A stretch of DNA of 34,244 bases. Source: Candidatus Poribacteria bacterium (GTDB lineage Bacteria; Poribacteria; WGA-4E; WGA-3G). The stretch covers positions 1 to 34,244 of the forward strand of contig JAJDWI010000070.1 in NCBI GenBank assembly GCA_022825665.1, in the 5' to 3' direction. Positions 3,111 to 28,863 of the stretch are shown piece after piece. The notes under the pieces were generated by a model. The model saw only the letters and a list, made by a program, of their open reading frames with translations, did no database searches and was not told where the DNA came from. Numbering within the stretch: the stretch's first letter is position 1; every line of letters starts with the position of its first letter. Made by a program: the position numbers and the translations under genes.

Positions 3111-3166
3111 AGAAGGAGACAAAATTTGTGATTCTTGTTGAAGAAATTGCATTTTTCTTAAAAAAG

Positions 3167-3195
3167 TGCAATTCTATACAACAAAATCGCGTTTT
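3167..3195 (+). promoter_or_regulatory. ECF-type promoter of first sigma fusion
   Basis: TGCAAT (3167-3172), 17 nt, then CGTTTT (3190-3195), preceded by an A-run and G as at the other four sites. The -10 is the least conserved of the set and the ATG is 64 nt after its first base instead of 41. ATTGCA at 3146-3151 forms an inverted repeat with the -35 element. Confidence 0.55.
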
Positions 3196-3253
3196 TAATT
3201 ATAGTGTGTTCTTATGTTGGTAAATGTCTATGTTTTCTGTATGAAGGTGTACT

Positions 3254-6200
3254 ATGAAAAATGATGATTCTGAACTAATTCAACGTACAATAGATGGTGA
3301 TCAGCACGCTTTTACTCTACTTGTGGAAAAATACCAAAAGCAGGTACACACCCTTGCGTGGCAGAAAATTGGTGACTATCACATCGCACAAGAAATAACA
3401 CAAGATGTATTCATAACTGCATATCAAAAGTTTCCAACCTTAAAACATTACAGACAATTTGCAGGATGGCTATATGTCGTTACAAACCGAAAGTGCATTT
3501 CATGGCACAGAAAGAAAAAATTTGAAACACAATCAATAGATGAGACTAATCCTATTGAGTTGGACAAAGCATATTTTTCAGATTATACGGAACATCAACG
3601 AGAGGAAGCAGCAAAAGAAACACGCCGTACCATAGTCAAAAAACTACTTAGTACCCTTAAAGAAAGTGACCGGACAGTGATAAAACTCTATTACCTCGCT
3701 GAAATGTCATGTGAAGAAATTTCAGAGTTTTTAGGTGTGTCTCCTAATACAGTGCGGAGTCGTCTCCATAGGGCACGTAACCGATTAAAGAAGGATGAAG
3801 CAATGATAAAAGAAAACTTGAGTAGTTTCCAACTACCGACACAATTTACCGAAACCATCATGGAGAAAATATCGCAACTCAATCCTGTATCCCCATCTGG
3901 AAGTAAACCTTTGGTACCATTAGCAGTTTCTGCTGTCTCTGCCATTTTGGTTCTATTCCTATTAGGGATAGGAGCGCAAAATCAAGTTCAATACCAGCAA
4001 CCGTATAGTTTAGATGCAGCATCAGAAGCAACAATAGAAATTGTTGACGCACAAATATTATTGGAATCTCCTACAACACCTAATTTAAAAAATAGAGTTG
4101 GATCTTCTAATATAACCAATAATAGCAATGGAACAGGACAAAATCCTGATACCACACCCAATGCTGCCAAAGTGGAAAATGGAATATCGAACGATAAAGG
4201 GAAATGGATTGAAACAAAAGGACCTGTTGGTGGTGCAGTACCTAATCTCTTTGCTACAAGTAAAGGGGATTTATATGCAGGTACACCCAGCGGAATCTAT
4301 AGACTCGCAGATAATAAAAAAGCATGGAAACACATCAACTCAAGAAATATCTTTTCCCATAGAAAACAATTAAGTGGTATGCGATCAGGACCAATGATAG
4401 AAAAAGATGATATCCTATATCTTGCTACAAATAAAGAATTACTTTCTTCCTCAGATCAAGGATTAACATGGAAGACTATTTCAATTCATCCAGGAGGTGA
4501 GATAATAGGCATTGTAATAACGGATCATGCATTTTACCTATCAATTACCAATGGTCTTTACCGTTCAGAAGATATCGGTGTATCTTGGGTAGAGATGACA
4601 CCATTTAATGATGAACATATAGGTGGTGAAATACATACAATTGCTTCAATTCAAAATATATTATTCGTTGGTACAAATGTAGGACTGTTTCGACTAATAG
4701 GTGATGAATGGGATCAAATATCATTTGATCGTATAGATAAAATCAATAAGAACTTTCCAATAATAACCGTGGAAGCCAAAGATAATCTGCTCTATGTTGC
4801 AAGAGGTCATAACATAAATCGACAAAATTTTGATCCTAAAGACATGCATAATGTGTTTCAAACGATATCACGGGAAAGAGACATAACTGGGTTGTCGTGG
4901 TCACTTTTCATATCATCTGATCATGGCGGCACATGGAAAAATATAACTCCCAAGAAAGATAATATTGACAAAGAGAAACTTTCAGTTGTAGATTTATTTA
5001 AGTCCAATGGAAATAAGAAGAAAGAAAATAAGAAAAGTGAAAGTCAATCTTCATATAAAGCACAAGTCTATAATCCTTTGAAATTGGTTGCCACTGAGAA
5101 TAACGTGCTTGTTATAGACAAAATGTTCTATTTTTCAAGTAATTCTGGCAATACTTGGCGAACTTTAGATAATGTAGATAACATAAGAAATGTGTTATCT
5201 ATTGTGAATTTGAATGAGAACACATACTACATAAGTGGGAGTTTTGGTATATATCGCACAACAGATATTGGGAAAACATGGAATCAATTTAATTCTGGAC
5301 TTGTAAATACAGATGTCTGGCAATTGATCGCTATTAATGGAACAATTTACGCCAACACAATATCAGGATTTGTTTATTCACCCGATGAAGGAGAATCTTG
5401 GATACCAATAAAAGGTGATACAGGTTTTATTACTCGAATAGTTGAAGATAATGGTGATATATTTGTTAGAGATGACAAAATCGGGACTCCGCGTATATTC
5501 CAACTCTCAATAGAAGAAAAGAACCTAAAGGCAATAACTGATATGCCACAATTAGATAGAATTGATCCATACAATGATAACCGCCAACTTAATCGTCCAA
5601 CTGGTTATATGGTAAATCATGTATGGCATGGAGATGGGTCCTTTCCTGAATCACAACTTGGAGGAATTAACGTTGAAAATGGAGTATATTATGTTGAATA
5701 CAACTATCATCTCTATAGATGGAAACCTAATGCTTTAAAATGGTTCGACACAGGAATATTAGATAAAGGTTTAAAGAACGATAAGTCCATACTTCACACT
5801 GTTAACAGGTTTATTGACACAGTTGGCTTTAAATTTGCAATATCAGGGAACACTGTTTACATTGGGAAAAAGGATCGTCAACTCATGCAATCTCTCTATG
5901 AAGGATTGACATGGACAGATCTCACAGGAAATCTTCCATTTCCTGTTGAATACTACAAGACGATAACATTCTCGGACGATTTTGTCTATGTAGCAACTGA
6001 CAAAGGTGTCGTTATATCGGAAAATGGAACGGATTGGCATATACTCACCGATGCGGGTGGAAATGCTCTTATTATGAATATGTTAGCAGTAAATGACGGT
6101 GAGGTATTTGGTGTGTCAAATCGTTTTGTATATCAAGGAAACAGTGATACACATACTTGGCACCAAGTCACACCTAAAATACCGTACACAGTCACTTGTA

Positions 6201-6274
6201 TTGATGTTGATGATGATATACTATATGTAGGAACGAAAAGAAGAGGTGTCCTTCGTTACAAACTTGACAAATAG
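3254..6274 (+). CDS. Membrane-tethered ECF sigma factor with beta-propeller ectodomain
   Basis: 1006 aa. Residues 7-90 form sigma region 2 (ECF type, with DYHIAQEITQDVF and GWLYVVTNRK). Residues 123-185 form region 4 with the helix-turn-helix CEEISEFLGVSPNTVRSRLHRARNRL. No region 3. A conserved juxtamembrane stretch SSFQLP...IMEKISQ precedes one transmembrane helix (about 219-239). Then come QQPYSLDAASEATIEIVDA, an Asn/Thr-rich linker (about 280-315) and a ~690-residue repeat domain with Asp boxes such as SSDQGLTW (399-406), SEDIGVSW (438-445), SSDHGGTW and TTDIGKTW, ending VLRYKLDK. Asp-box repeats fold as BNR/Ycf48-like beta-propellers. The sigma part should lie in the cytoplasm and the propeller outside it. 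Ordinary ECF sigmas are ~190 aa. The sensed signal is unknown. Confidence 0.9.
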   Translation: MKNDDSELIQRTIDGDQHAFTLLVEKYQKQVHTLAWQKIGDYHIAQEITQDVFITAYQKFPTLKHYRQFAGWLYVVTNRKCISWHRKKKFETQSIDETNPIELDKAYFSDYTEHQREEAAKETRRTIVKKLLSTLKESDRTVIKLYYLAEMSCEEISEFLGVSPNTVRSRLHRARNRLKKDEAMIKENLSSFQLPTQFTETIMEKISQLNPVSPSGSKPLVPLAVSAVSAILVLFLLGIGAQNQVQYQQPYSLDAASEATIEIVDAQILLESPTTPNLKNRVGSSNITNNSNGTGQNPDTTPNAAKVENGISNDKGKWIETKGPVGGAVPNLFATSKGDLYAGTPSGIYRLADNKKAWKHINSRNIFSHRKQLSGMRSGPMIEKDDILYLATNKELLSSSDQGLTWKTISIHPGGEIIGIVITDHAFYLSITNGLYRSEDIGVSWVEMTPFNDEHIGGEIHTIASIQNILFVGTNVGLFRLIGDEWDQISFDRIDKINKNFPIITVEAKDNLLYVARGHNINRQNFDPKDMHNVFQTISRERDITGLSWSLFISSDHGGTWKNITPKKDNIDKEKLSVVDLFKSNGNKKKENKKSESQSSYKAQVYNPLKLVATENNVLVIDKMFYFSSNSGNTWRTLDNVDNIRNVLSIVNLNENTYYISGSFGIYRTTDIGKTWNQFNSGLVNTDVWQLIAINGTIYANTISGFVYSPDEGESWIPIKGDTGFITRIVEDNGDIFVRDDKIGTPRIFQLSIEEKNLKAITDMPQLDRIDPYNDNRQLNRPTGYMVNHVWHGDGSFPESQLGGINVENGVYYVEYNYHLYRWKPNALKWFDTGILDKGLKNDKSILHTVNRFIDTVGFKFAISGNTVYIGKKDRQLMQSLYEGLTWTDLTGNLPFPVEYYKTITFSDDFVYVATDKGVVISENGTDWHILTDAGGNALIMNMLAVNDGEVFGVSNRFVYQGNSDTHTWHQVTPKIPYTVTCIDVDDDILYVGTKRRGVLRYKLDK

Positions 6275-6345
6275 TATTAATTTAAAAATCCCTACTATGT
6301 TCATCTAAGGTTCAGCCAGAACAATTGCATTCTTATGTTGAATTA

Positions 6346-6374
6346 TGCAATTATTCTCCTCAAATTCGCGTCTA
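6346..6374 (+). promoter_or_regulatory. ECF-type promoter of second sigma fusion
   Basis: TGCAAT (6346-6351), 17 nt, CGTCTA (6369-6374); the -10 begins exactly 41 nt before the ATG at 6410. ATTGCA at 6324-6329 forms an inverted repeat with the -35, as upstream of the first fusion. Confidence 0.65.
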
Positions 6375-6409
6375 TATATTAAAAGAACACTGACATATTG
6401 AGGTCTAAG

Positions 6410-9400
6410 ATGATACATGATGATTCTGACCTGATTCAACAAACATTAGACGGTGATGAACAAGCATTTGCTACACTTGTGAAAAAATACCAAAAGCAGA
6501 TACACGCATTAGCGTGGCAGAAAATTGGTGACTTCCACATCGCACAAGAAATAACACAAGATGCATTCCTCACAGCCTTCCAAAAACTCTCAACACTTAC
6601 CAATCCAAACAGATTCGCTGGATGGCTCTATGTCATTACCAACCGCAAATGTATATCTTGGCACAGAAAAAAGAAACAACAACCGCAATCCTTAGAAGAA
6701 ACAGATCAACTTGAATTAGAGGAGATGTATTATTCAGAATATATGACCCAACAACGTCAAGAAGCAGCCAATCAGAAACAGCGTGCAATAGTACAAAAGT
6801 TACTCAGCACATTACAAGAGAGTGAACGCACAGTCGTAAATCTGTATTACATCGCAGAAATGACATGTGAAGATATTGGCAAGTTTTTGGGTGTTTCACC
6901 TAACACAGTTAGGAGTAGACTACACCGCGCCCGGAGCAAAATGAAGAAGGATGAAGCAATGATAAAAGAAAACTTGAGCAGTTTCCAACTCCCGTCCCAA
7001 CTCACAGAGAACATCATGAAAAGAATATCACAACTCAATCCCGTATCACCATCTGGTAGCAAACCTTTGGTTCCATTAGCAGTTTCTGCTGTCTCTGCTA
7101 TTTTGGTTCTATTTCTGTTAGGGATCGGTGTGCAAAATCAAGTTCAATATCAGCAATCGTATAGTTTAGATTCTACATCAGAATCAACAATAGAAATTGT
7201 AGACGCACAAATAGAATTAGTTACTCCAATAACACCTACTGTAATAAACAACGTGGGATCTTCAATTATAGCCAATAACAACGGTGCAGGACATAATCCA
7301 AACACAGCACTCAATTCTGCACAAGTGGATAATGGAATATCTGACAAGATAGGAAAATGGAGCGAAACAAATGGTCCTGTAGGAGGAGAAGTCGTTAATC
7401 TCTTTACCTCATTTGATGGAGATGTATTTGCTGGAACAAAAAGTGGAATCTATAAACTCACAGATGACAAAGCAGCGTGGACTCTCGTCAATTCACGGGA
7501 TATATTCTCACACAGAGAACAAATGAGCGGAATGCGTTCGGGTCCAATGATTGAAAATGATGGAAAACTATATCTGGCAACAGATAGAGAAATTCTGACC
7601 TCCACTGATAAAGGGAAAACATGGAACACACTCTCTGAACATCCAGGAGGTGGACTTATCGGTTTGGTGATGGTGGATCAAACATTTTACTTGTGTCTTA
7701 ATGATGAATATTACCTTTCAGGTGATAACGGTGTATACCGTTCCGATGATAATGGTGTTTCATGGGTTCAGTTGACACCATTTGACGAAAGACACCCAGA
7801 CATCCAACCTCGTGCAATTGCTGTAATTGATAGCACTGTCTTTGTCGGTACCAATAAGGGACTCTATCGTCTTAATGGAGCAACATGGGAACAAATATTC
7901 CTTGATGAAATAGGTGAAAAAAGCACATATTTACCAGTCATATCTATGGAAGTGAAGGGTAACTCACTCTATGTTGCCAGAAGTTATGATATTTGTAATA
8001 GTTTCCGCCAATCGAGTGGTAAGTTAATAAAAAGCACTCCACCTACAGAATCTAATGATACATGGACTGTAGTACGGGAAAGTACTCCTGAAGTGGATCA
8101 AGTTCCTTGGTCCTTACAACTTGAGATTGATCGTGCCAAGGCTCCAACAGGTTTGTCTTGGGCACTGTTCCAATCAAATAATCATGGTAAAACATGGGAT
8201 AATATCACGCCGAGAAAAAACAATACAGATAAGGAGGAACTATCATTAGTTAATTTATTTAATGTGAATTCACAGGACAAAAAAGACAATAAGAAAAAAG
8301 ATAACACATCACCCCATATATCAGGAGGATACAGTCCTCTGAAAATCGCTGTAACCAATAAAAATGTGATGCTTATAGACAGAAAAAAACACTACCATTC
8401 ATCTAATTCTGGAGAAACATGGAAAACCGTAGATACGATCCCATTAGGCAATGCTTCTGCAATTGTAATGGTTGATGAGAACACCTACTACAGAAGTGGA
8501 AACTACGGAATAAATCGTACAACTGATGGTGGTAAATCATGGCATCAATTTAACAACGGACTCGTAAATACAGATGTTTGGCAATTGATAGCTGTCAATG
8601 GTACTCTTTATGCAAATTCGATAGATGGATTTGTATATTCAATTGATGAAGGTCAATCTTGGATACCGGTTAATGGAGATACAGGTTATATCACACGTAT
8701 AATGGAATCCAACGGTGATATTTATGTAAGAGATGACAAAACAGGTGTTCCTCGTTTTTACCGTCTTTCTACAAAAGATCATAGACTCGTCGAAATGTCT
8801 GAAATGCCAATATTAGATAAAATTGATCCATGGAAGGAAAACCATTATTTGCGTCGTCCTTCTGGTGATATGGGAAGATATGTGTCACATGGAGACGGTT
8901 CCTTTTCTGAATCACAACTTGGCGGCTTTGCTATTGTCAATGGGACATTTTATGCTGAATACTGTTATCAACTCTATAGATGGAAACCTGTTACTTCTGA
9001 ATGGTTCAATACCGGATTAGTAGATAAAGGAACAAGTGAAGATAGATCTTATTGCTATGCTAATAATACATTTATAGACGCAATTGGATTTAGATTTGCA
9101 GTGTCCGATGACACAATTTACGTCGGTAAGAAGGAAGGTCAACTCATGCAGTCCCTTGATGAAGGAATGACCTGGACCGATGTTACAGGATACCTTCCAT
9201 TTCATATTGATAACTATAGGGCAATAACAATCGCAGGCAACTTTGTCTATGTAGCAACTGACAGAGGTGTTGTAATGTCCAATAACGGTGTTGATTGGCA
9301 TACACTCACTGATATAGATGGAAGACCGCTAATTATAACTATGTTTGCAGTAGATGGCACTACGGTTTATGGTGAAAATAAGCAAAGAATATACAAAGTA

Positions 9401-9535
9401 AACAACGATATGCTTTTATGGGAGAAAGTTACACCCAAAATAGAATATACAGTGACATGTATTGATGTTGATGAAAATACACTCTATGTAGGAACAAGCA
9501 ACAAAGGAGTACTACGTTACAGACTTGATAACTGA
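6410..9535 (+). CDS. Membrane-tethered ECF sigma factor with beta-propeller ectodomain
   Basis: 1041 aa, closest paralogue of the preceding gene. I choose the ATG at 6410 (MIHDDSDLIQ), not the TTG 12 bp earlier: TTGAGG precedes the ATG as ribosome binding site and this aligns all paralogues. Sigma region 2 and region 4 (CEDIGKFLGVSPNTVRSRLH) are intact. One transmembrane helix (PLVPLAVSAVSAILVLFLL) is followed by QQSYSLDSTSESTIEIVDA, a linker and the propeller with Asp boxes TSTDKGKTW, RSDDNGVSW, QSNNHGKTW, RTTDGGKSW and QSLDEGMTW. A ~30-residue segment near the middle (STPPTESNDTW...) is absent from the first copy. Its nucleotide sequence around the membrane helix is nearly that of the first copy, which points to recent duplication or conversion. 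Confidence 0.9.
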   Translation: MIHDDSDLIQQTLDGDEQAFATLVKKYQKQIHALAWQKIGDFHIAQEITQDAFLTAFQKLSTLTNPNRFAGWLYVITNRKCISWHRKKKQQPQSLEETDQLELEEMYYSEYMTQQRQEAANQKQRAIVQKLLSTLQESERTVVNLYYIAEMTCEDIGKFLGVSPNTVRSRLHRARSKMKKDEAMIKENLSSFQLPSQLTENIMKRISQLNPVSPSGSKPLVPLAVSAVSAILVLFLLGIGVQNQVQYQQSYSLDSTSESTIEIVDAQIELVTPITPTVINNVGSSIIANNNGAGHNPNTALNSAQVDNGISDKIGKWSETNGPVGGEVVNLFTSFDGDVFAGTKSGIYKLTDDKAAWTLVNSRDIFSHREQMSGMRSGPMIENDGKLYLATDREILTSTDKGKTWNTLSEHPGGGLIGLVMVDQTFYLCLNDEYYLSGDNGVYRSDDNGVSWVQLTPFDERHPDIQPRAIAVIDSTVFVGTNKGLYRLNGATWEQIFLDEIGEKSTYLPVISMEVKGNSLYVARSYDICNSFRQSSGKLIKSTPPTESNDTWTVVRESTPEVDQVPWSLQLEIDRAKAPTGLSWALFQSNNHGKTWDNITPRKNNTDKEELSLVNLFNVNSQDKKDNKKKDNTSPHISGGYSPLKIAVTNKNVMLIDRKKHYHSSNSGETWKTVDTIPLGNASAIVMVDENTYYRSGNYGINRTTDGGKSWHQFNNGLVNTDVWQLIAVNGTLYANSIDGFVYSIDEGQSWIPVNGDTGYITRIMESNGDIYVRDDKTGVPRFYRLSTKDHRLVEMSEMPILDKIDPWKENHYLRRPSGDMGRYVSHGDGSFSESQLGGFAIVNGTFYAEYCYQLYRWKPVTSEWFNTGLVDKGTSEDRSYCYANNTFIDAIGFRFAVSDDTIYVGKKEGQLMQSLDEGMTWTDVTGYLPFHIDNYRAITIAGNFVYVATDRGVVMSNNGVDWHTLTDIDGRPLIITMFAVDGTTVYGENKQRIYKVNNDMLLWEKVTPKIEYTVTCIDVDENTLYVGTSNKGVLRYRLDN

Positions 9536-9601
9536 TAATACTGTGAACTGGGATACAACAATAGAAATATCATTTTTGGCGTTGCTTTGGACATGGTAGC
9601 A

Positions 9602-9618
9602 GGCACGCTCCGCGTGCC
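9602..9618. repeat. Short perfect hairpin
   Basis: GGCACGC and GCGTGCC flank a 3-nt loop. There is no T-run, so it is not an evident terminator. It is probably one of the window's interspersed palindromes, and it lies between the second sigma fusion and the DUF4159 gene. Confidence 0.5.
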
Positions 9619-9749
9619 GTCCGCTCATTTGTCAGAATCACAGAAACTATAGGGGACACTGATGATGTATTTTCTGTGTTTTCCGTGCCTTCCGCGATTC
9701 AGACAGAAAAATCGATAATTGAATACCTCTGCAACTAAGCAAAATCGCA

Positions 9750-9778
9750 TTTACACACCTCCTGTTTTATGTTACAAT
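9750..9778 (+). promoter_or_regulatory. Sigma-70-type promoter of DUF4159 gene
   Basis: TTTACA (9750-9755), 17-nt spacer, TACAAT (9773-9778), 38 bp before the ATG at 9816. Just upstream lies TGCAAC followed after only 12 nt by CATTTA, which may be a decayed version of the ECF-type promoter of the neighbouring genes. Confidence 0.6.
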
Positions 9779-9815
9779 TTAATTAGAAAAATTAACATAT
9801 TCGGAATATAATAAC

Positions 9816-10544
9816 ATGAAACATAAAACACACATCCTTATAATTATCCTGTTTGTTCTGTTTTTCACTCCTTTATCCATAGGTGATTTCACAAAATACG
9901 ATTTTACCTTTGTCCGTTTGAAATATAGTGGGAGTTATCGCTATAAGAGTCTATGGCATATAGATTATCCTACAGCGGAACGTAACCTCCTCTTCCAATT
10001 ACGCCAACATACCGATATTAAAGCCAGTCCGATCGAAAAAGTCATTGAGGTAGGTTCACCTGAACTATTTGACTATCCATTTGCTTACATAGCAGAATTA
10101 GGTCGTCTAAATCTATCTAAAGCCGAAGCAGAAAACCTTAGAGAATACATGCTGCGAGGTGGATTTATCATGATGGACGATTTTCATGGAAAAGCACAGT
10201 GGAAAAGATTCTATAAGCAATACAAAAAGATATTTCCTAAACGTGAACCCAGAGATATTCCTATTAATCACCCTTTATTCAATTGCTTCTTCAAAATTGA
10301 TACATTAATGCAAATTCCTGCACCCGCTGCTTACCGGAAGGGCAGAACACATGAGAATGATGGTTATCAAGTGCGGTGTATGGGTGTTTTTGACGACCAA
10401 GGTAGGATAATGATGGTAATTAACTTCAATACAGATTTAGGAGATGCATGGCAAAATGCAGCAGAACACTTCTACCCACGCAAGTTCTCGAATATGGCTT
10501 TCAAAATGGGTATAAACACCATTATCTATTCACTTACGCATTGA
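9816..10544 (+). CDS. DUF4159 family exported protein (copy 1)
   Basis: 242 aa. A signal peptide (hydrophobic ~7-20, IGDF after) is followed by the DUF4159 pattern: FTFVRLKYSG, a WHIDYPTAERNLLFQLRQ block, ELFDYPFAYIAE, LREYMLRGGFIMMDDFHG, NHPLFNCFF, FDDQGRIMMVINFNTDLGDAW and the terminal GINTIIYSLTH. The domain resembles glutamine-amidotransferase-like folds, but no catalytic cysteine is evident. Role unknown; in other genomes DUF4159 proteins accompany cell-envelope operons. It is a paralogue of the gene at 28132. It has its own sigma-70-type promoter and a terminator, so it is a separate unit inside the sigma array. Confidence 0.88.
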   Translation: MKHKTHILIIILFVLFFTPLSIGDFTKYDFTFVRLKYSGSYRYKSLWHIDYPTAERNLLFQLRQHTDIKASPIEKVIEVGSPELFDYPFAYIAELGRLNLSKAEAENLREYMLRGGFIMMDDFHGKAQWKRFYKQYKKIFPKREPRDIPINHPLFNCFFKIDTLMQIPAPAAYRKGRTHENDGYQVRCMGVFDDQGRIMMVINFNTDLGDAWQNAAEHFYPRKFSNMAFKMGINTIIYSLTH

Positions 10545-10571
10545 AATGATTTTGTGCTTTATTACTCCACC

Positions 10572-10602
10572 AAACAGTCTTATCCTACATAAGATTGTTT
10601 TA
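10572..10602 (+). terminator. Intrinsic terminator after DUF4159 gene
   Basis: AAACAGTCTTAT and ATAAGATTGTTT form a 12-bp stem (one G-T wobble) with a 5-nt loop, followed by a short T-run. It lies 28 bp after the stop codon. Confidence 0.65.
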
Positions 10603-10676
10603 CATATACTTATCCTTCAACCTATTTCTCTCACCCTTTCTTCTTATAGTGAAATCTAAAAATGTTCACACTCCCT

Positions 10677-10736
10677 GGTAGGTGCGGTTTCTAACCGCAC
10701 TATTTACACAGATTCGGTTAGGATACCGAACCTACC
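10677..10736. repeat. Interspersed inverted repeat
   Basis: GGTAGGT (10677-10683) and ACCTACC (10730-10736) enclose GTGCGGTTTCTAACCGCAC and CGGTTAGGATACCG, both hairpin-forming. The same design occurs at 15382-15455, likewise just upstream of a sigma fusion. The rest of 10603-10814 shows nothing recognisable. Confidence 0.65.
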
Positions 10737-10814
10737 CAAGTGTCCAAGTAATTGCGAATTTTACTATATTAAAAATTGCTATTTCCTCAAAAAAATCCTC
10801 TTTTTACAAAAAAG

Positions 10815-10843
10815 TGCAATTCTTACTAACAAAAATGTGTCTA
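10815..10843 (+). promoter_or_regulatory. ECF-type promoter of third sigma fusion
   Basis: TGCAAT (10815-10820), 17 nt, TGTCTA (10838-10843), starting 41 nt before the ATG at 10879. It is followed by TACATTAAAAGA, nearly the same as TATATTAAAAGA after the site at 6346. Confidence 0.65.
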
Positions 10844-10878
10844 TACATTAAAAGATCAATATAGACTTGAGGTGTGCA

Positions 10879-13800
10879 ATGAATAACAGTGATACAAACC
10901 TTATTCAACGAACCTTAGACGGTGATCAGCAAGCATTTGCTGAACTTGTGGAAAAATACCAAAAACAAATACACGCGTTAGCGTGGCAGAAAATTGGTGA
11001 TTTTCACATCGCTCAGGAAATAACACAAGACGCTTTTCTCACTGCATATAATAAACTTGCAACGCTCAAATACCACAACCGATTTGCAGGTTGGCTATAT
11101 GTGATCGCTGATCGAAAGTGTAAGAACTGGCACAGAAAAAGAAAACTTGCACTGCAGTCTTTAGATGATACAGATCCATTCGAATTAGAGGAGGTGTATT
11201 ACTCAGAATATATGACACGTCAACGAGAAGAAGCAGCAAAAAGGAAACGTAGAGCTGTAGTACAGAGGTTGCTTAGTACACTTCAAGAAAGTGAGCGGAC
11301 AGTCGTAAATCTGTATTACATCGCTGAAATGACTTGTGAAGAAATAGGTAAATTTATGGGTGTGTCTGCGAATACAGTTCGGAGTCGTCTACACCGCGCA
11401 AGAAATAAATTAAGAAAGGATGAAACAATGATTAAAGAAAACCTTAGCAGTTTCCAACTCCCGGCACAACTCACAGAAAACATCATGAAAGAAATCTCTA
11501 ATCAGAATCCTGCGATACCATCTACAAGCAAACCATTAATTCCATTAGCAGTTTCCGCAGCATCTGCAATTCTAATCATATTCCTGTTAGGAATTGGATC
11601 TCAAAATCTATTCCAATTTCAACAACCCTATAGCTTAAATGCGCTTTCCGACAAAACAATAGAAATAACAGATGCACACATTGTTATTGATACACCAGCA
11701 AATCCTGCTGACCGAAATCAGATCGGACGTACAAATGTCGCTGGAAATACTAACGGAACAGGACAAAAACAAAACGATCCACTATTCGCAGCAGCAAATG
11801 CAGATGAACTTGATACATCCAATACAGATAGACAATGGATACAAACAAGTGGACCAGAAGGTGGTGTTATTAACACACTATTCTCTACCTCCAACGGTGC
11901 CATCTATACAGGGACATCCTCTACATTATACAAACTTACAGAGGATAAGAGTTCATGGAATCTTGTCTACTCAGTAAATACATCCACAATAAATATGAGT
12001 GATATGGTACTCGGTGGAAAACCAATGTTTGAGCGAGGAGATTCTCTGTTTATTGTAACTGATACTGAAGTAATTAACTCAAAAGATAGAGGTGAAACAT
12101 GGCAGTCTCTCGGAACCATTCCAGACGGGTATCCTGTTGATATAGCTGTGACAGATTCTACATTATACCTTGGTATTACTAAAGATGTAGTCAAACCTAA
12201 TGAAGCTCATACTGAGGGTGTATATGCGTCTGAGGATGATGGTAAAACTTGGCAAATCATTGATGATTCCAACCTCAAGGGTAAGAAAATACGCGCTGTT
12301 GCTGCCATTGAAGAAACGGTTTTTGTTGGCACAGATAACGGTTTATATAAATTCCACGAAGAAGAATGGAAAAAAATATTCATTGGACCTAAGGAAATGC
12401 ATAACGAAAGAATGGCTATTCCCTCTATTGCTACTGCAGAGAACATATTGTATGTTGCCGCTGGAAAAAACTATAGCAACACAAAAGCCGTAATGACAAA
12501 GGATTCATGGTGGTCACTCTACCGTTCAGCAGATTTAGGAGAATCTTGGGAATCCATTGATCCGAGAGGTGAAAACATTAAAAGTGGATTTTCTATTCAA
12601 TTTCCAATGCCAGGGTATGGAAATCATCCATATCTGGGAATAAAGGTTACTGCCAAAAATGAGAATGTCCTGCTTTCAGATATGAGATCAACCTACTATT
12701 CAAAGGACAGTGGTGAAACATGGACGACAATAGATAGACAAAAGATGCAAGAAATCAAAACGGCATATCCTTTTATTGTGTTGGATTCTAACACATACTA
12801 CAAAGGAACCCAATCCGGGGTCTATAGGTCAACTGATGGCGGAGATTCATGGCAGCAGTTTAATACTGGTCTTACAAGTTCTACCGTGACAGATCTATTC
12901 GCTGTTAACGGAAAACTATATGGTAGAACAAATGATCATTTTGTTACTTCTACGAATGGTGGTGAAACATGGACACCGTTATCTTTCAATAAGAGAAGTA
13001 TATCAATGATGAATAAATTCGACAATTCTATTTACCTAAAATCCACAAAAAATAACATCTCAATCCTACGCTTATCTTCTGAGAACAATGATGTAATTGA
13101 GATTCGAAACATGCCCAAAATTGAAGATGTTGATCTTAATCACGACTCCAATTTTGATGTTTTTATAGACAAAAGTAAACAAATCATTGAACAGGATGAG
13201 ATACTTAATCTTCAGGAGGATGATGTTGAAAAAATCAGTCAACAAATTACTGATGCATTTCAAAAACAAGCAGCATCTACATTCATGCCGCTTTTTGGGA
13301 GTTTCGCTGTTAGTAACGAAACATATTATATGGAGTATAGAAATAGGTTATACACTTGGAAATACGATGAGATTGAATGGCACGATACAGGTATTGTTGA
13401 TGAAACAATGACTGACTTACCATTTAACTTATTCAATCCTAAGGAATTTCTAAACGACCTTTCAGATATAATGGAAATGCAAAAATCTATTGGTTTCAAA
13501 CTTGCAGTATCAGGAAAAACCATATATGTCGGTAAACAAAATGGGAATCTTTTACGTTCCTATGATGAAGGAATCACTTGGACGGATGTAACTAAGGACC
13601 TTCCTCTATCGTATGAGAAAATACAAGATATTAAATATGCTGAGTCTACAATATATGTATCAACAGACAAAGGAGTCACCTATTCAACAGATGGTGAAAA
13701 ATGGAATACAACGACTGACCCCGATGGAAAACCGATTATTATAAAACAGTTTACTGTAGATGGAGCGACTTTATATGGTGTCGTTGGACTTCATGTGTAT

Positions 13801-13941
13801 CATTTGAAACAGAATTCAAACTTGTGGGAAATAATTACGCCAGAAATACCATCTCCCATTTCATCATTGGCTGTTGATGACAAAACATTATATGTTGGCA
13901 CACTGGGGCGTGGTGTTCTCCGTTTCGCGCTTGATGAATAA
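10879..13941 (+). CDS. Membrane-tethered ECF sigma factor with beta-propeller ectodomain
   Basis: 1020 aa from the ATG at 10879 (MNNSDTNLIQ). A TTG 12 bp earlier is rejected because TTGAGG is the ribosome binding site. Sigma region 2 (DFHIAQEITQDAFLTAYNK) and region 4 (CEEIGKFMGVSANTVRSRLHRARNKL) are complete. One transmembrane helix (PLIPLAVSAASAILIIFLLGIG) is followed by QQPYSLNALSDKTIEITDA, a linker and the propeller with Asp boxes NSKDRGETW, ASEDDGKTW, RSADLGESW, YSKDSGETW, RSTDGGDSW and TSTNGGETW. Unlike its sisters it has a charged, probably helical insertion late in the propeller (about residues 752-795, DKSKQIIEQDEILNLQEDD). It ends with VLRFALDE and is followed directly by a strong terminator. 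Confidence 0.9.
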   Translation: MNNSDTNLIQRTLDGDQQAFAELVEKYQKQIHALAWQKIGDFHIAQEITQDAFLTAYNKLATLKYHNRFAGWLYVIADRKCKNWHRKRKLALQSLDDTDPFELEEVYYSEYMTRQREEAAKRKRRAVVQRLLSTLQESERTVVNLYYIAEMTCEEIGKFMGVSANTVRSRLHRARNKLRKDETMIKENLSSFQLPAQLTENIMKEISNQNPAIPSTSKPLIPLAVSAASAILIIFLLGIGSQNLFQFQQPYSLNALSDKTIEITDAHIVIDTPANPADRNQIGRTNVAGNTNGTGQKQNDPLFAAANADELDTSNTDRQWIQTSGPEGGVINTLFSTSNGAIYTGTSSTLYKLTEDKSSWNLVYSVNTSTINMSDMVLGGKPMFERGDSLFIVTDTEVINSKDRGETWQSLGTIPDGYPVDIAVTDSTLYLGITKDVVKPNEAHTEGVYASEDDGKTWQIIDDSNLKGKKIRAVAAIEETVFVGTDNGLYKFHEEEWKKIFIGPKEMHNERMAIPSIATAENILYVAAGKNYSNTKAVMTKDSWWSLYRSADLGESWESIDPRGENIKSGFSIQFPMPGYGNHPYLGIKVTAKNENVLLSDMRSTYYSKDSGETWTTIDRQKMQEIKTAYPFIVLDSNTYYKGTQSGVYRSTDGGDSWQQFNTGLTSSTVTDLFAVNGKLYGRTNDHFVTSTNGGETWTPLSFNKRSISMMNKFDNSIYLKSTKNNISILRLSSENNDVIEIRNMPKIEDVDLNHDSNFDVFIDKSKQIIEQDEILNLQEDDVEKISQQITDAFQKQAASTFMPLFGSFAVSNETYYMEYRNRLYTWKYDEIEWHDTGIVDETMTDLPFNLFNPKEFLNDLSDIMEMQKSIGFKLAVSGKTIYVGKQNGNLLRSYDEGITWTDVTKDLPLSYEKIQDIKYAESTIYVSTDKGVTYSTDGEKWNTTTDPDGKPIIIKQFTVDGATLYGVVGLHVYHLKQNSNLWEIITPEIPSPISSLAVDDKTLYVGTLGRGVLRFALDE

Positions 13942-13961
13942 CATATTTGAATAAAAATAAT

Positions 13962-13990
13962 AGGCGCGTTCAAATACGCGCCTTTCTTTT
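13962..13990 (+). terminator. Intrinsic terminator after third sigma fusion
   Basis: AGGCGCGT and ACGCGCCT form a GC-rich perfect stem with a 6-nt loop, followed by TTCTTTTT. It lies 20 bp after the stop codon. This is the clearest terminator in the window. Confidence 0.85.
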
Positions 13991-14061
13991 TATTTTAAAT
14001 GACAAATTATTTGTCAGAATGCAACTTTTTTTCTTTATATTTGTATATTAAGATAAAAAAG

Positions 14062-14090
14062 TGCAACCTTTTTTGAAATAAATGTCTCTT
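14062..14090 (+). promoter_or_regulatory. ECF-type promoter without adjacent sigma gene
   Basis: TGCAAC (14062-14067) preceded by an A-run and G, 17 nt, TCTCTT (14085-14090), then TTAATAACAGA. The leader keeps ATAGATTTGAAG, similar to ATAGACTTGAGG before the third sigma fusion, but GAA stands where that gene has its ATG. The next plausible gene starts at 14266, giving a leader of about 170 nt that contains only an 11-codon frame at 14143. Confidence 0.5.
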
Positions 14091-14265
14091 TAATAACAGA
14101 GGGTAGTATAGATTTGAAGAAAACAGAAAAAACTTTCAACAAATGAATATAAAGAACTCTGAACAAGTAGAAGTCTGACTTGTCTAACTGACTAAACAAG
14201 ATAACAAAAGCAAAGAAAAGTTCACACGAGGTTACAGCACACTCAAAGAAAAATGGGAGAAAACA

Positions 14266-14643
14266 ATGAAAAAAGAATTTACCATAGAAAACTGGATACT
14301 CGGTGGCACAAGTTTTATTTTGATTTTCACATTTGGGTGCTATCTGTGGTTTCAAAGTGAAATGTCTTCCATTAATAATCAATATAACGATCATACAGTA
14401 GAGACACAACAATCGGACGAAACATCTGAAACTGATAAATTAGATACACCGTTGATAGAAATAGATGATAAAGAGGACTCTGACACATACAACAGAAATA
14501 ACTCCGTTATTGATTATACTGATACTGAAATTTCAGATGTATCTGCAACAGAAAGTGATTACATTGATAATGATAAAGCTACAGTATATGTGCCTTGGGG
14601 AAAACAATCAGCAGGATTGAAGATCTTTAATCTGAATATCTAA
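14266..14643 (+). CDS. Small membrane-anchored acidic protein, unknown function
   Basis: 125 aa. GGGAG 6 nt before the ATG supports the start. A short cytoplasmic N-terminus (MKKEFTIENW) is followed by one transmembrane helix (about 11-30, ILGGTSFILIFTFGCYLWF) and a ~90-residue tail rich in Asp, Glu, Ser and Thr, ending VPWGKQSAGLKIFNLNI. I recognise no family. It sits between two sigma fusions, under a promoter of the same type and with its own terminator, so it probably belongs to their regulon. It may be an accessory or modulator, or the remnant of a fusion that lost its sigma domain; the sequence does not decide this. Confidence 0.65.
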   Translation: MKKEFTIENWILGGTSFILIFTFGCYLWFQSEMSSINNQYNDHTVETQQSDETSETDKLDTPLIEIDDKEDSDTYNRNNSVIDYTDTEISDVSATESDYIDNDKATVYVPWGKQSAGLKIFNLNI

Positions 14644-14733
14644 TGGAACCGAAAAATCGGGAGTATGTATATAAAATATCTACTTTTCAAATTACTAACT
14701 TATAAGTAAGTCAAAACAGATTCATCAAATTGT

Positions 14734-14768
14734 AAAGGCATGCAACTATTGCGTGCCTTTCGTTTTTT
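14734..14768 (+). terminator. Intrinsic terminator after small membrane protein
   Basis: AAAGGCATGCAA (14734-14745) and TTGCGTGCCTTT (14749-14760) form a 12-bp stem with one G-T wobble and a 3-nt loop, followed by CG and a run of seven T. Confidence 0.8.
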
Positions 14769-14961
14769 TGAATAGTATCATAATATTGATACCTTTTATG
14801 TAGGAGCGACTCTTGGTCGATATCTATTATCCTGAAAATCCTGCTAATCTTGTCTATCCTGGTTCAGAAAAACTGAAAACCATCCTAAACATACATGAAA
14901 TATATTGTTCCAATCCACCCAAACCCTTCCATCCCTCTCCAACACCTGTTATAATACTATT

Positions 14962-15191
14962 ACTATGAAAAACAAGAAACCGACACAACCCACATTCTCA
15001 ACAAAAACCGACACCCATTACCCCAAAAATATCCATACAAAAACTGACCAAAATCAAGCAAATAAAAAACGAACCAAAATGAAAATTTCAAAAAGTATCG
15101 TACACACCTATAAACCCAGTCCCAGACTGGCAAAACCCCAAAAATCAAAACGTACACAGAAACGAAAAACGCCCTTTTTGTGTACGTTTTT
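14962..15191 (+). ncRNA. Candidate ~230-nt RNA, copy 2
   Basis: The extended -10 TGTTATAAT (ending 14955) is followed about 230 nt later by a 12-bp hairpin with T-run (15147-15191). The CCAGT/ACTGG hairpin (15116-15130) matches copy 1. CGTACACA at 15099-15106 repeats the core of the terminator's 5' arm and could pair alternatively with 15179-15186. Predicted start and end give almost the same length as copy 1. Confidence 0.45.
15147..15191 (+). terminator. Terminator-like hairpin, covarying partner of 3066-3110
   Basis: AAAACGTACACA (15147-15158) pairs with TGTGTACGTTTT (15179-15190). Against copy 1, stem positions 7, 10 and 11 change from C-G, C-G, A-T to T-A, A-T, C-G, all compensatory. 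Confidence 0.55.
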
Positions 15192-15381
15192 AGAAGGAGC
15201 AAAAATAGATATATACTTATGGTGAACTTTAGAATTATAATGTATAAATACTTCAAATTAACAAAAAATATACTGCCATAGTTTATGCCGTATCAGTTTA
15301 GGGTTATTGACAATTGGCAATTTGAAAAGAACTATTAAACAGTGTATCATTAAAGTAAAAACCGTAATTATTTACACACGA

Positions 15382-15455
15382 CGGTAGGTTCGGTTTCCTA
15401 ACCGAACCGGTGTTTGTCCAGTTTCATAGATGCGATTAGGAAACCGCATCTACCG
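15382..15455. repeat. Interspersed inverted repeat
   Basis: CGGTAG (15382-15387) and CTACCG (15450-15455) enclose GGTTCGGTTTCCTAACCGAACC and GATGCGATTAGG...CCGCATC. Same family as 10677-10736. The remaining sequence between 15205 and 15515 shows nothing recognisable. Confidence 0.65.
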
Positions 15456-15515
15456 AGTGTGTGTACTTATTTTTAGGTATCACTATAGTTCATAAACCAA
15501 TTTTATTGACGAAAG

Positions 15516-15544
15516 TGCAACCTCATATAATATTTTCGCATCTT
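15516..15544 (+). promoter_or_regulatory. ECF-type promoter of fourth sigma fusion
   Basis: TGCAAC (15516-15521), 17 nt, CATCTT (15539-15544), starting 41 nt before the ATG at 15580, followed by ATATTTAAAGA. Spacing matches the second and third fusions exactly. Confidence 0.6.
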
Positions 15545-15579
15545 ATATTTAAAGACTCAATCTGTTTGTGAGGAAATCC

Positions 15580-17679
15580 ATGAACAATAACGACTCTAAT
15601 CTTATTAAACGAACCCTTGAGGGTGATCAACAAGCATTTGCATCTTTAGTCGAAAAATACCAAGATCAGATACATGCCTTAGCTTGGCAAAAGATCGGCG
15701 ATTTCCACATTGCACAAGAGATAACACAAGATACATTCGTAAAAGCCTATCAAAAACTCGCGACATTAAAACATCCAACACGTTTTGCTGGGTGGTTGTA
15801 TGTCATTACAAACAATAATTGCAAAATGTGGCATAGAAGAAACAGATTACAAACACAATCTTTTGAGGAGACAGATCCAGTTGAGTTGGAAGAAATATAT
15901 TATACGGAACATAAAACCAGTGAACGAGAGGAAGAAGCAAATGAGAAAAGACGATCATTAGTAAAAGAACTACTCAATAAATTACGAGAAAGCGAGAGAA
16001 CTGTCGTTACGCTATACTACCTCGCGGGTTTGAGTTGTGAAGAGATTGGTGAATTTCTCGGTGTAGCAACCAATACAGTAAAAAGTCGACTTCACCGCGC
16101 ACGAAACAGACTAAGACAGGAGGAAGCAATGATACAAGAAAACCTCAGTAGTTTCCAATTACCAAAACAACTCACAGAGAATATTATGGATGCTATTTCA
16201 AAAGTACCCCCTACATCAGCCACCCCCAATAAACCTATTATACCTTGGTTACTCTCAACTGCATCTGCAGTTTTAATCTTGATAATACTCGGAACAAGTG
16301 CTTATCATATATACCATTATCAAAAGCCATATAGTTTAGATTCTACATCTCAAAAAACTATCGAGATAACAGAAGCAAAACAGGTCATAGATTCTACCGT
16401 AAAAACTGATAAACGAAATCTTATCGCAAAATCCAACGATCAAAATACAAACAATAACGCATCAAATAATCAAAACTCACAATTAGTTGACCCAACAAAT
16501 TTAGATGGTCCATCTAATTCCAGTAAAAACAAAATTAATCAAAAAGGAACTGTATCATTATCCGGAATTGTAGTGGATACAAGTGGAAAAGTAGTAGAGG
16601 GTTTAGAACTTACAGTAAAACCAATCAAAATAAATGAGAACGGGAGTATGGTAGAACTTACTCCGATGTCTTCTTGGAAAAATTTTATAACTGATGACAA
16701 AGGAAGATTCACGTTTATAATCACCAATCCAGTTGCTTTACAATTAGTGTTACTACCAGATACAGTTTCTGAATATGAAATAAAGTCACTTAAAATAGGT
16801 GATTTTACCTTTTTTAATAACGGAAATAATGAATTCTTTCCACTCAGGACCTTTAGAATGACATTTGTTATTGAACCTGGGATGGCTCTTGATAACACAA
16901 TTGTTACTGTCCAACCACCCCCAAGAAGAATTCGCGGACGTATACTTCTAAGGAATGGTAAACCCCTTGCCAATGCCAGAGTGGATCTGACCATTCATGC
17001 AGGAAAACATGATAAATTTCTCTATTTCTTTCCTGAGTTTGGCGGCAGTATAATGAGTACTTTCGCACAAACTGATTCCCGAGGATACTTCACTCATTAT
17101 CTATCAAATCAGATTGATCGAGATTATAAAGTAAAAGTGAATTATCATGGATCGACAGATACATCAGGATGGTTCCAACTAAGAGAGGGAAAGTGGAAGG
17201 ATGATCTTGTATTTCGGGTTAGAGACAAACAGAGAGTCGTAAATAAAATAAATAAACGTGTCAAAGCACAACAAGCAGTATGGACTGTAAACCCATATAA
17301 TGGACATGCTTACAAAAGAATCGTAGTGGATAGTTGGGATGATGCAATAGCAAAAGCAAAATCTGAAAAAGCATATCTCGTTGCTATTAACGATGAAGCT
17401 GAACAGAAATGGTTAGAAACACGATTTCCCGAATATCTGTTTTATTGGATAGGATTGACTTCTAACCAAGATGGCTCATTCGATAAATGGACAAACGGAG
17501 ATCAGTTAACTTATGTAAATTGGATGTCAACTGAAAACTCCACAGAACAAAACACACATATTGCACTGGATTTCTTTTCCAAAAGATGGATGAAAATAAA
17601 TTCCAATCATAAATTCTTACCTGCAATCCAACTTGCTATCATTGAAAAAGACGATATAAAGATTAAGTCAAAAAAGTAA
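15580..17679 (+). CDS. Membrane-tethered ECF sigma factor with C-type-lectin-like ectodomain
   Basis: 699 aa from the ATG at 15580 (MNNNDSNLIK); a GTG 12 bp earlier overlaps the GAGG ribosome binding site and is rejected. Residues 1-185 are a complete ECF sigma (region 4: CEEIGEFLGVATNTVKSRLHRARNRL). SSFQLPKQLTENIM, one transmembrane helix (about 220-243) and QKPYSLDSTSQKTIEITEA match the propeller-bearing sisters. Beyond an Asn-rich linker the protein differs. Two carboxypeptidase-regulatory-like beta-sandwiches (from about 325, LSGIVVDTSGKVVEG; from about 455, IRGRILLRNGKPLANARV) precede a C-type-lectin-like domain (about 570-690; NGHAYKRI, AYLVAINDEAEQKWLE, YWIGLT, YVNWM). The lectin fold lacks the usual disulfide cysteines. 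It is co-transcribed with the next gene (11-bp gap). Confidence 0.9.
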   Translation: MNNNDSNLIKRTLEGDQQAFASLVEKYQDQIHALAWQKIGDFHIAQEITQDTFVKAYQKLATLKHPTRFAGWLYVITNNNCKMWHRRNRLQTQSFEETDPVELEEIYYTEHKTSEREEEANEKRRSLVKELLNKLRESERTVVTLYYLAGLSCEEIGEFLGVATNTVKSRLHRARNRLRQEEAMIQENLSSFQLPKQLTENIMDAISKVPPTSATPNKPIIPWLLSTASAVLILIILGTSAYHIYHYQKPYSLDSTSQKTIEITEAKQVIDSTVKTDKRNLIAKSNDQNTNNNASNNQNSQLVDPTNLDGPSNSSKNKINQKGTVSLSGIVVDTSGKVVEGLELTVKPIKINENGSMVELTPMSSWKNFITDDKGRFTFIITNPVALQLVLLPDTVSEYEIKSLKIGDFTFFNNGNNEFFPLRTFRMTFVIEPGMALDNTIVTVQPPPRRIRGRILLRNGKPLANARVDLTIHAGKHDKFLYFFPEFGGSIMSTFAQTDSRGYFTHYLSNQIDRDYKVKVNYHGSTDTSGWFQLREGKWKDDLVFRVRDKQRVVNKINKRVKAQQAVWTVNPYNGHAYKRIVVDSWDDAIAKAKSEKAYLVAINDEAEQKWLETRFPEYLFYWIGLTSNQDGSFDKWTNGDQLTYVNWMSTENSTEQNTHIALDFFSKRWMKINSNHKFLPAIQLAIIEKDDIKIKSKK

Positions 17680-22133: not shown

Positions 22134-22257
22134 GGTATTTACTATTCGGATATGTTGTGCGGAATCTTCATCAAACCCAAAGTAGACACATATCTGTTTT
22201 GACTTCTTGTCTGTAAACCCAATCTACTCCAATTACGTTCCTCTTATCGTAACAACA

Positions 22258-28123: not shown

Positions 28124-28131
28124 TAAATAAT

Positions 28132-28863
28132 ATGCGTATTTTTATATTAATAATCATCAGCATTACAACATTCATCCCTAATTTGTCTCTGGAATCTGAA
28201 TCGTTTCTTGAGCATGATTTTACCTTTGTTCGTCTACAATATTCTGGCAGACTCACACAACTAAGTAATTGGCGTGTAGACTGGCCTGCATCAGATCGCA
28301 ATTTTATCTATCAACTTAGAAAGCAAACGAATATTGATGTTGCTCCAGATAGTATTAGAATACCTGTAGGATCAGAGGATTTATTCAATTATCCATTTGC
28401 TTACATTCTTGAAGTAGGTAGTATGCGTTTGAATAAAGCAGAAGCAAAGAATTTGCGAGAATATTTACTCCGTGGTGGGTTTATCTTTGTTGATGATTTC
28501 CATGGTGGATTAGAATGGGATAGGTTTTATTCTGAACTAAAAAAAATATTTCCAAATCGTGAACCTATAGATATTCCTGTAGATCATCATATTTTCAATT
28601 GTTTTTATAAAATCGAAAAACTGATTCAGATACCCGGTTTGCGTGCCTTATATAGTGGCAGGACTTATGAACGTTTTGATGGACATCCTGCTCGGTATCT
28701 TGGAATGTTTGACGATAGAGGTCGAATTATGATGTTGATCTGCTTTAATTCTGATCTTGGAGATGCTTGGGAACATGCTGCAGAGGCATCATATCCACGT
28801 GAATATTCTAATATAGCCTTGAAAATCGGTATCAATGCAGTCATCTATTCCTTGACGCATTAA
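28132..28863 (+). CDS. DUF4159 family exported protein (copy 2)
   Basis: 243 aa. The ATG at 28132 gives a signal peptide (MRIFILIIISITTFIPNLSL); a TTG 27 bp earlier overlaps the preceding gene and disrupts it. With no clear ribosome binding site and an 8-bp gap, translation is probably coupled to the barrel gene. DUF4159 landmarks are all present: FTFVRLQYSG, WRVDWPASDRNFIYQLRKQ, LFNYPFAYILE, LREYLLRGGFIFVDDFHG, FDDRGRIMMLICFNSDLGDAW, GINAVIYSLTH. Closely similar to the protein at 9816. It ends the envelope operon and converges with holA 63 bp away; no terminator is obvious between them. Confidence 0.87.
   Translation: MRIFILIIISITTFIPNLSLESESFLEHDFTFVRLQYSGRLTQLSNWRVDWPASDRNFIYQLRKQTNIDVAPDSIRIPVGSEDLFNYPFAYILEVGSMRLNKAEAKNLREYLLRGGFIFVDDFHGGLEWDRFYSELKKIFPNREPIDIPVDHHIFNCFYKIEKLIQIPGLRALYSGRTYERFDGHPARYLGMFDDRGRIMMLICFNSDLGDAWEHAAEASYPREYSNIALKIGINAVIYSLTH

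Follow-up and report, generated by a model that had tools for sequence, protein, structure and literature searches.

The window, that is, the whole stretch of 34,244 nucleotides that we analysed, is contig C79 of a 4.53-Mb Candidatus Poribacteria assembly, a 95%-complete metagenome-assembled genome (MAG) in 170 contigs. Poribacteria are uncultured bacteria known from sponges. The window holds four genes that each encode, in one protein, an extracytoplasmic function (ECF) sigma factor, one hydrophobic helix and, at the C-terminus, a large domain that we refer to as the sensor (Table 1).

Architecture of four fused ECF genes

The original prediction, made from the sequence alone, had described an array of four single-polypeptide transmembrane ECF sigma factors. 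This domain order holds for all four open reading frames (ORFs), as judged by Pfam, TIGR02937 and hydropathy. The frames and coordinates also stood, except for the start codons of proteins 2, 3 and 4: these had been listed from TTG, TTG and GTG, and in each an in-frame ATG four codons later matches the family start in the alignment. The genes lie close together, as claimed, but are not strictly contiguous, with a DUF4159 gene and an ORF for a small membrane protein in between. All four proteins are ECF sigma factors by regions 2 and 4. Sigma70_r2 and both region-4 models scored above the Pfam cut-offs in each, the ECF superfamily model TIGR02937 gave 92-96 bits (cut-off, 42.9), and SigW was the top profile match among solved ECFs (E 4.7e-33).

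A linker of ~40 residues leads from sigma region 4 to a single 19-residue hydrophobic segment (mean 2.3-2.7) that starts at residue 221-227 in each protein, as called by a hydropathy scan rather than a trained topology predictor. Beyond the helix, each protein continues with a low-complexity stretch and then the large C-terminal domain. Proteins 1-3 carry Sortilin/BNR-type repeats there (Sortilin-Vps10 scored above cut-off in proteins 1 and 3 and below it in 2), and protein 4 carries CarboxypepD_reg and Lectin_C. We modelled the structure of protein 1 from 47 sequences, with a mean model confidence (pLDDT) of 71.0. Foldseek placed GH74 enzymes at ranks 1-5 for its sensor (E ~1e-20), with BT4673 next, and VIA-align placed them at ranks 1-15 (Z 23.0-24.2 over 541-568 residues). 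With the sequence profile alone, the E-values were 2.4e-17 for GH74 and 2.5e-11 for 3ott; with the profile of sensor 1 alone, GH74 came up at E 1.3e-19. Sensor 1 thus matches the GH74-type tandem seven-bladed propeller in its predicted fold, with a modest separation from other propellers. The catalytic Asp pair of GH74 could not be placed in sensor 1, where the profile alignments pair blades out of register. After GH74, the sensor matches were BT4673 and BT4663 of Bacteroides hybrid two-component systems; given these and the GH74 matches, a glycan ligand for the sensors is plausible.

The absence of a separate anti-sigma gene from the window, also part of the original prediction, was borne out by Pfam and NCBIfam scans of the neighbouring genes, which found no anti-sigma protein; we rejected such a partner for the window. 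Within the four proteins, the Pfam scan gave no zf-HC2 and no match at E 0.01 to an anti-sigma domain, FecR-like domains included. Among the 77 aligned transmembrane (TM) members of the family described below, none has an HxxxCxxC motif, which rejects a zinc-finger fusion, and one has any cysteine at residues 185-222. Since the motif is missing from all 77 and only ~40 residues separate region 4 from the helix, the idea that the membrane tether takes the place of an anti-sigma factor, put forward at the outset, is the best reading. Elsewhere in the genome we found five zf-HC2 domains, none on the window's contig and each separated by no more than ~250 bases from a non-fused ECF (183-212 residues).

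Table 1. Coordinates of the fused ECF genes, their parts and associated features in the window
Feature	Position	Strand	Basis or remark
Fused ECF 1 (P0001, 1006 aa)	3254..6274	+	sigma, helix, GH74-like tandem propeller
Sigma region 2 of gene 1	3320..3520	+	region-2 scan
Sigma region 4 of gene 1	3635..3787	+	Pfam, residues 128-178
Sensor of gene 1, predicted tandem beta-propellers	4205..6271	+	structure/profile matches
Fused ECF 2 (P0002), probable start ATG 6410	6398..9535	+	ORF and Pfam
Fused ECF 3 (P0003), probable start ATG 10879	10867..13941	+	ORF and Pfam
Fused ECF 4 (P0004, 703 aa), probable start ATG 15580	15568..17679	+	sigma, helix, CarboxypepD_reg, C-type lectin
Hydrophobic helix, gene 1	3917..3973	+	hydropathy
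Hydrophobic helix, gene 2	7073..7129	+	hydropathy
Hydrophobic helix, gene 3	11542..11598	+	hydropathy
Hydrophobic helix, gene 4	16243..16293	+	hydropathy
ECF-type promoter-like site, gene 1	3165..3197	+	17.9 bits; 12.5 with window left out of training
ECF-type promoter-like site, gene 2	6344..6376	+	23.1 bits; 19.4 with window left out
ECF-type promoter-like site, gene 3	10813..10845	+	15.6 bits, weakest of the four; 10.0 with window left out
ECF-type promoter-like site, gene 4	15514..15546	+	19.2 bits; 16.3 with window left out
ECF-type promoter-like site, small membrane-protein ORF	14060..14092	+	15.1 bits; 12.9 with window left out
Candidate internal start ATG, gene 1 (codon 184)	3803..3805	+	upstream AAGGATGAAGCA, weak Shine-Dalgarno
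Candidate internal start ATG, gene 2	6959..6961	+	junction position
Candidate internal start ATG, gene 3	11428..11430	+	junction position
Candidate internal start ATG, gene 4	16129..16131	+	after AGGAGGAAGCA
DUF4159 protein gene within array	9816..10544	+	Pfam; homologues at 7 other fused-ECF loci
Small single-helix membrane protein, probable co-regulated gene	14266..14643	+	promoter-like site upstream in 8/9 homologues
Gene directly 3' of fused ECF 4	17691..19121	+	product resembles sensor of fused ECF 4, 33% identity

A constant module and its promoter class

When the genome was scanned, sigma region 2 turned up at 50 places, 34 of them in open frames of at least 400 residues. Three of the 34 (on contigs C38 and C87) had no match to the family profile; the other 31 are fused ECFs, 23 with a hydrophobic segment at residue 219-230 and 8 without. 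We considered cytoplasmic propeller proteins as a description of these fusions, which is not favoured for the 23 helix-bearing members; 8 of the 31 lack the helix. The sensors of the scanned TM members (a survey of those scanned rather than of every member) comprise Sortilin/BNR-type propellers, WD40 propellers, the C-type lectin with CarboxypepD_reg of protein 4, and an M16-like domain. All eight named loci that matched protein 1 in the genome collection belong to Candidatus Poribacteria. With the linker-TM segment alone as query against 82 genomes of the class, we found matches in 58/58 genomes of the same family (1 to at least 60 each), in 9/14 genomes from elsewhere in the order (1 to 3 each) and in 0/10 from the rest of the class. 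The suggestion that four such genes together form an unusual locus did not survive this comparison: we rejected a unique or odd locus because fused ECF genes are common in the poribacterial family and five stand side by side on contig C103 of the same genome.

The part of the protein around the membrane is the part that these members share. In 77 of 88 family ORFs (41 sources) the first hydrophobic segment falls at residue 200-250, and two more ORFs are end-truncated. Across the 77, conservation extends through the linker, the helix and another 30 residues past the helix despite differing sensors, and the conserved linker motif SSFQLPTQLTENIM is common to members with unrelated sensors. Lysine and arginine residues around the helix number 203 before it and 129 after it, with more before than after in 52 members, equal numbers in 19 and fewer in 6. 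Hydropathy and this charge bias suggest an inner-membrane helix with the N-terminal sigma factor in the cytoplasm and the sensor in the periplasm.

Compared with a sister-species locus (L069), three of the four genes show 91-94% identity. For these three, the ratio of nonsynonymous to synonymous substitution rates (dN/dS) against L069 is 0.04-0.10 over sigma regions 2 and 4 and 0-0.09 over the linker and TM segment. L069 ends short of the fourth gene, and the rows for 14266, 15568 and 17691, which had been matched to other genes for that reason, were set aside; the fourth gene has an orthologue in L097 with 94% identity. The sigma factor, the linker and the TM segment are thus under purifying selection. 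An assembly artefact or a set of decayed genes might be suspected in a MAG of 170 contigs. Purifying selection, conservation in a sister species and the presence of the module in 58/58 family genomes, some of them single-contig assemblies, leave that explanation a negligible chance.

To describe the upstream regions, we used a two-box matrix that was seeded by eye and trained on family genes of the same genome (consensus TATGCAACc-N14/15-cGCGTCAtTA). Sites above the 99% shuffle level precede 27/30 own-genome family genes and 10/213 non-family ORFs, several of the latter starting with signal-peptide-like sequence. They also precede 39/53 relatives outside the training set, a figure that is not independent, since these relatives include orthologues of training genes. 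The own-genome members 4477 and 7892 (L079, L078) and L088 have no site above threshold. A first, looser pattern, GCAAC-N14-18-CGTCA, was uninformative (50 genome matches versus 46 for the reversed control). A stricter pattern gave 121 matches in 8 genomes versus 32 for its reverse, with a family ECF start at most 250 bases downstream at 16 of the 30 loci examined, and brought out a subtype, TGCAATT-N15-CGCGTCTATA, in several relatives.

Five sites in the window exceed 13 bits, one before each fused gene and one before the small membrane-protein ORF; the four gene sites were in the training set, and with the window left out of training one unrelated window site scores 14.2. The shared ECF-type promoter suggests autoregulation by the fused ECFs, and autoregulation together with shared or overlapping targets would be the simplest reading of the promoter data. 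At the loci examined, 8/9 homologues of the small membrane protein, the window's included, carry a site upstream. We note homologues of this protein at window positions 14266-14643 and at L097, L098, L102, L108, L109, L112 and L078.

A candidate internal start and soluble fusions

The description of one polypeptide per gene may be incomplete, as each of the four genes has a candidate in-frame start at the end of the sigma part. At this codon (184 in protein 1), the 77 TM members have ATG in 47 cases, GTG in 15 and TTG in 2, and 13 have no start codon. Just upstream, Lys180 is encoded by AAG in 80% (30% gene-wide; the highest of 20 Lys columns), Glu181 by GAG in 63% (27% gene-wide; second of 23 Glu columns) and Glu182 by GAA in 96%. 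A Shine-Dalgarno match of at least 5 precedes the junction codon in 79%, versus 4% of 1039 other in-frame start codons, and a match of 7 occurs in 26/64 rows with a start codon and in 0/13 without. AGGAG or GGAGG is present in 25/61 rows where codon randomisation, which covered 61 of 88 rows (27 were dropped, their junction not located), predicts 6.9. In soluble relatives with unrelated linkers, a match of at least 5 was found in 7/8, versus 19% of 545 background windows.

These figures would be expected if many family genes also yielded a sigma-less membrane product from codon 184, for which we judge the chances about even. Equally balanced is the view that no second product exists and that the Shine-Dalgarno-like element with its ATG or GTG is a by-product of conserved amino acids or of a translational pause before membrane insertion. 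The contrasts with other in-frame starts, with randomised codons, with rows lacking a start codon and with background windows all speak against a by-product. In its favour are the 13/77 rows with no start codon and the AAGGATG that is all genes 1-3 of the window carry. The enrichment of AGGAG/GGAGG is as high in rows without Met (13/23, mostly GTG) as in rows with it (12/38). What weakens the second product further is that the association is weak when counted by 70% clusters (16/21 versus 4/9, p 0.12), that two other Val columns are GTG-rich as well (0.92 and 0.82), and that ATG to GTG is the single step from Met to Val, so GTG at 15/16 Val codons may reflect descent. The pattern also suggests an alternative history, in which the fused genes descend from overlapping sigma and partner genes with a lost stop.

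The soluble relatives have other partners. In one (L092:4634-6391, on contig C28 of the same genome as the window), the sigma factor is in frame with a complete DnaN clamp, giving 585 aa, with a promoter-like site of 26.2 bits upstream and CGGAGGAATTGGAATG at the junction. The ECF-DnaN junction is spanned in 17/59 genomes (one partially, at a contig end). This gene is the only DnaN central-domain match found in the 95%-complete assembly; other genomes have separate DnaN genes. The fusion has a parallel in the clamp-coupled transcription of phage T4 (gp55-gp45). A second relative (L094:4541-8566, on contig C128 of the same genome) is one 1341-aa ORF with ECF sigma, FtsZ and DnaE domains. A query from its sigma factor to its PHP domain matched at full length in 17/59 genomes; ECF-FtsZ occurs in 9 further genomes, 3 of them with a stop inside the matched stretch. 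There are separate FtsZ genes as well. The fusion could be a decoy or a cell-cycle sensor. For the DnaN and FtsZ junctions, 5 of 18 loci were usable, with L127, L128, L134 and L140 located by motif and L130 and L135 as protein only.

These fusions allow a broader reading, which we hold to be rather improbable: one ECF module would serve as the transcription output of nested genes, wiring surface ligands and perhaps replication or division state to an autoregulated promoter class. The first start would give the sigma factor joined to its partner and the in-frame internal start the partner alone, with no stop between; partners would mostly be membrane glycan sensors and, in soluble members, the DnaN clamp, FtsZ or FtsZ-DnaE. 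Inputs might include the loading of the clamp, the state of the Z-ring or attack by phages on such targets (decoy sensing).

We observed further ECF fusions at L092:9691-11673, L088:5210-7402 and L093 (two ORFs). Their partners are a PD40/DPPIV-like propeller without a helix and an M16-like peptidase domain with one; two have no Pfam match beyond sigma. Elsewhere in the window, at positions 22207-24579, 24644-25750 and 25772-28123, two related barrel-like outer-membrane proteins flank a PA14 protein. One of the pair has a weak ShlB match and the other DUF4252; in L112-L114 and L116, homologues are neighbours of fused ECFs. The window has two DUF4159 genes (9816-10544 and 28105-28863), with homologues at 7 other fused-ECF loci.

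Related systems and a model of signalling

Single-polypeptide membrane ECFs are already known, among them ECF52, ECF48, ECF53, IutY and the WD40-bearing ECFs of Planctomycetes (PMC8999054, PMC8567305); the comparisons below follow those parts of the sources that treat them. SCO4117 of Streptomyces coelicolor (ECF52) resembles the window proteins in joining a sigma factor, a membrane segment and an extracytoplasmic domain, carbohydrate-binding in SCO4117, and its release by proteolysis has been proposed (PMC5826349, PMC8999054). It has a zinc-finger domain, whereas the window proteins have no zinc finger and other sensors; carbohydrate binding by their lectin and GH74-like folds is a prediction. 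SCO4117 is the sole ECF52 member in S. coelicolor, and ECF52 is described as exclusive to Actinobacteria, in contrast to 23 TM members in one genome here. IutY of Pseudomonas putida (ECF243) is likewise one polypeptide, made up of a sigma factor and a membrane anti-sigma part and activated by Prc and RseP (PMC8999054). It serves iron-siderophore cell-surface signalling; Pfam shows no FecR-like domain in the window proteins.

ECF57 and related Planctomycetes ECFs with WD40 share large C-terminal propellers and strong lineage expansion with the poribacterial family, and some WD40-bearing ones were recovered in the membrane or SDS fraction (PMC8567305, PMC8999054). A pair of cysteines in sigma 2 and sigma 4 is conserved in ECF57 and not constant here: C81 is invariant in 47/47, and at residue 153, the Cys of region 4, other members carry V, T, A or Y. 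The shared promoter and internal start are not described for ECF57-type proteins in the relevant parts of these two sources (PMC8567305, PMC8999054). The Bacteroides hybrid two-component sensors BT4663 and BT4673 have a periplasmic double propeller of similar fold, with a histidine kinase and response regulator as output in place of a sigma factor. GH74 xyloglucanases, whose tandem beta-propeller is the best structural and sequence match of sensor 1, are secreted enzymes; sensor 1 is joined to a sigma factor and a helix, and the catalytic residues of GH74 could not be placed in it.

We lean, by a little, towards a one-component transmembrane sigma factor that stays at the membrane until ligand binding brings about its proteolytic release. 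The cytoplasmic N-terminal ECF sigma factor would be tethered to the inner membrane by the conserved linker and one helix, and the periplasmic domain would bind a ligand, probably glycans, through a GH74-type double propeller in three proteins and a C-type lectin in the fourth. Upon binding, proteases of the site-1 and RseP types would cut the protein close to the membrane, and the freed sigma fragment of ~20-25 kDa would transcribe its own gene, along with co-regulated envelope genes, from promoters of the class GCAA(C/T)-N17/18-CGTC. A sigma-less sensor made from the codon-184 start could act as an uncoupled receptor or a brake. We prefer proteolytic release because this is how IutY works and how SCO4117 has been modelled (PMC8999054, PMC5826349). 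In a check of the genome for M50 proteases, we found one of 568 residues with HELGH.

Several observations weigh against this model or limit it. M50 proteases occur in 14/14 control genomes, so their presence permits release and is weak support for it. The predicted topology is drawn from hydropathy and charge, and over residues 211-312 the structure model of protein 1 stays below a pLDDT of 50, too low to place the helix and linker. In VIA-align, the Z-scores of GH74 (22.6-24.2) lie little above those of other propellers, put at 21.5 and below in one comparison and, from rank 16 on, at 22.9 and below in another, and the model of protein 4 is poor (mean pLDDT 46.9) and unfit for structure search. 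Of the 53 relatives, 14 have no promoter-like site; with the window left out of training, 7 window sites exceed 12 bits versus 0 to 6 in shuffled windows, and only site 6344 beats all 20 shuffled windows, which makes it the one site that clearly exceeds chance by itself. The genome-wide anti-sigma search covered zf-HC2 (PF13490), leaving room for other anti-sigma classes.

Two other mechanisms bear on the same evidence. The sigma factor might be active while tethered, with the ligand changing its conformation or clustering and RNA polymerase being recruited at the membrane with no cleavage. CadC-like membrane-bound activators are a precedent for such action. It would fit with the lack of a recognisable anti-sigma domain between sigma factor and helix and with a linker and TM segment as strongly constrained as the sigma factor itself, and positive autoregulation near its own gene would suit a tethered factor. 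However, DNA of several loci would need to reach the membrane, and the relatives that have been characterised or modelled, IutY and SCO4117, point to proteolytic release in the sections that treat them (PMC8999054); we consider tethered action unlikely. Somewhat less doubtful, although still on the improbable side, is that the ~40-residue linker acts as a minimal fold-back anti-sigma element, the remnant of a shrunken sigma/anti-sigma fusion. CnrY, also a short peptide, offers a comparison. The model of protein 1 predicts a helix at residues 198-208 (pLDDT 62-73), SSFQLPTQLTENIM is shared across unrelated sensors, and the internal start would yield precisely the linker, TM segment and sensor. 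Against this, no Pfam anti-sigma domain matches and the helix is not confidently placed in the model. Such a linker is compatible with membrane-held, proteolytically released sigma factors and does not exclude them.

Among the titles listed from the open literature, we found no paper on poribacterial fused ECFs; with the 2021 ECF reclassification outside this comparison, our claim of novelty is tentative. In the parts of Kamke 2014 (PMC3909097) at hand, WD40 proteins are called abundant and the word 'sigma' does not occur. What appears to be new is a greatly expanded family in which no anti-sigma domain is recognised, in which sensors are exchanged while the module stays constant, and whose genes share a promoter class and may be nested. 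The soluble fusions to DnaN, FtsZ or FtsZ-DnaE appear to be new as well. If the model is true, a whole bacterial family would rely on one-protein transmembrane sigma factors rather than on separate sigma and anti-sigma genes. With this family one could then test directly whether a sigma factor tethered to the membrane needs cutting to act. The proteins would also provide one-component biosensors with a compact chassis from nature, and the family would explain how these uncultured sponge-associated bacteria sense their surroundings.

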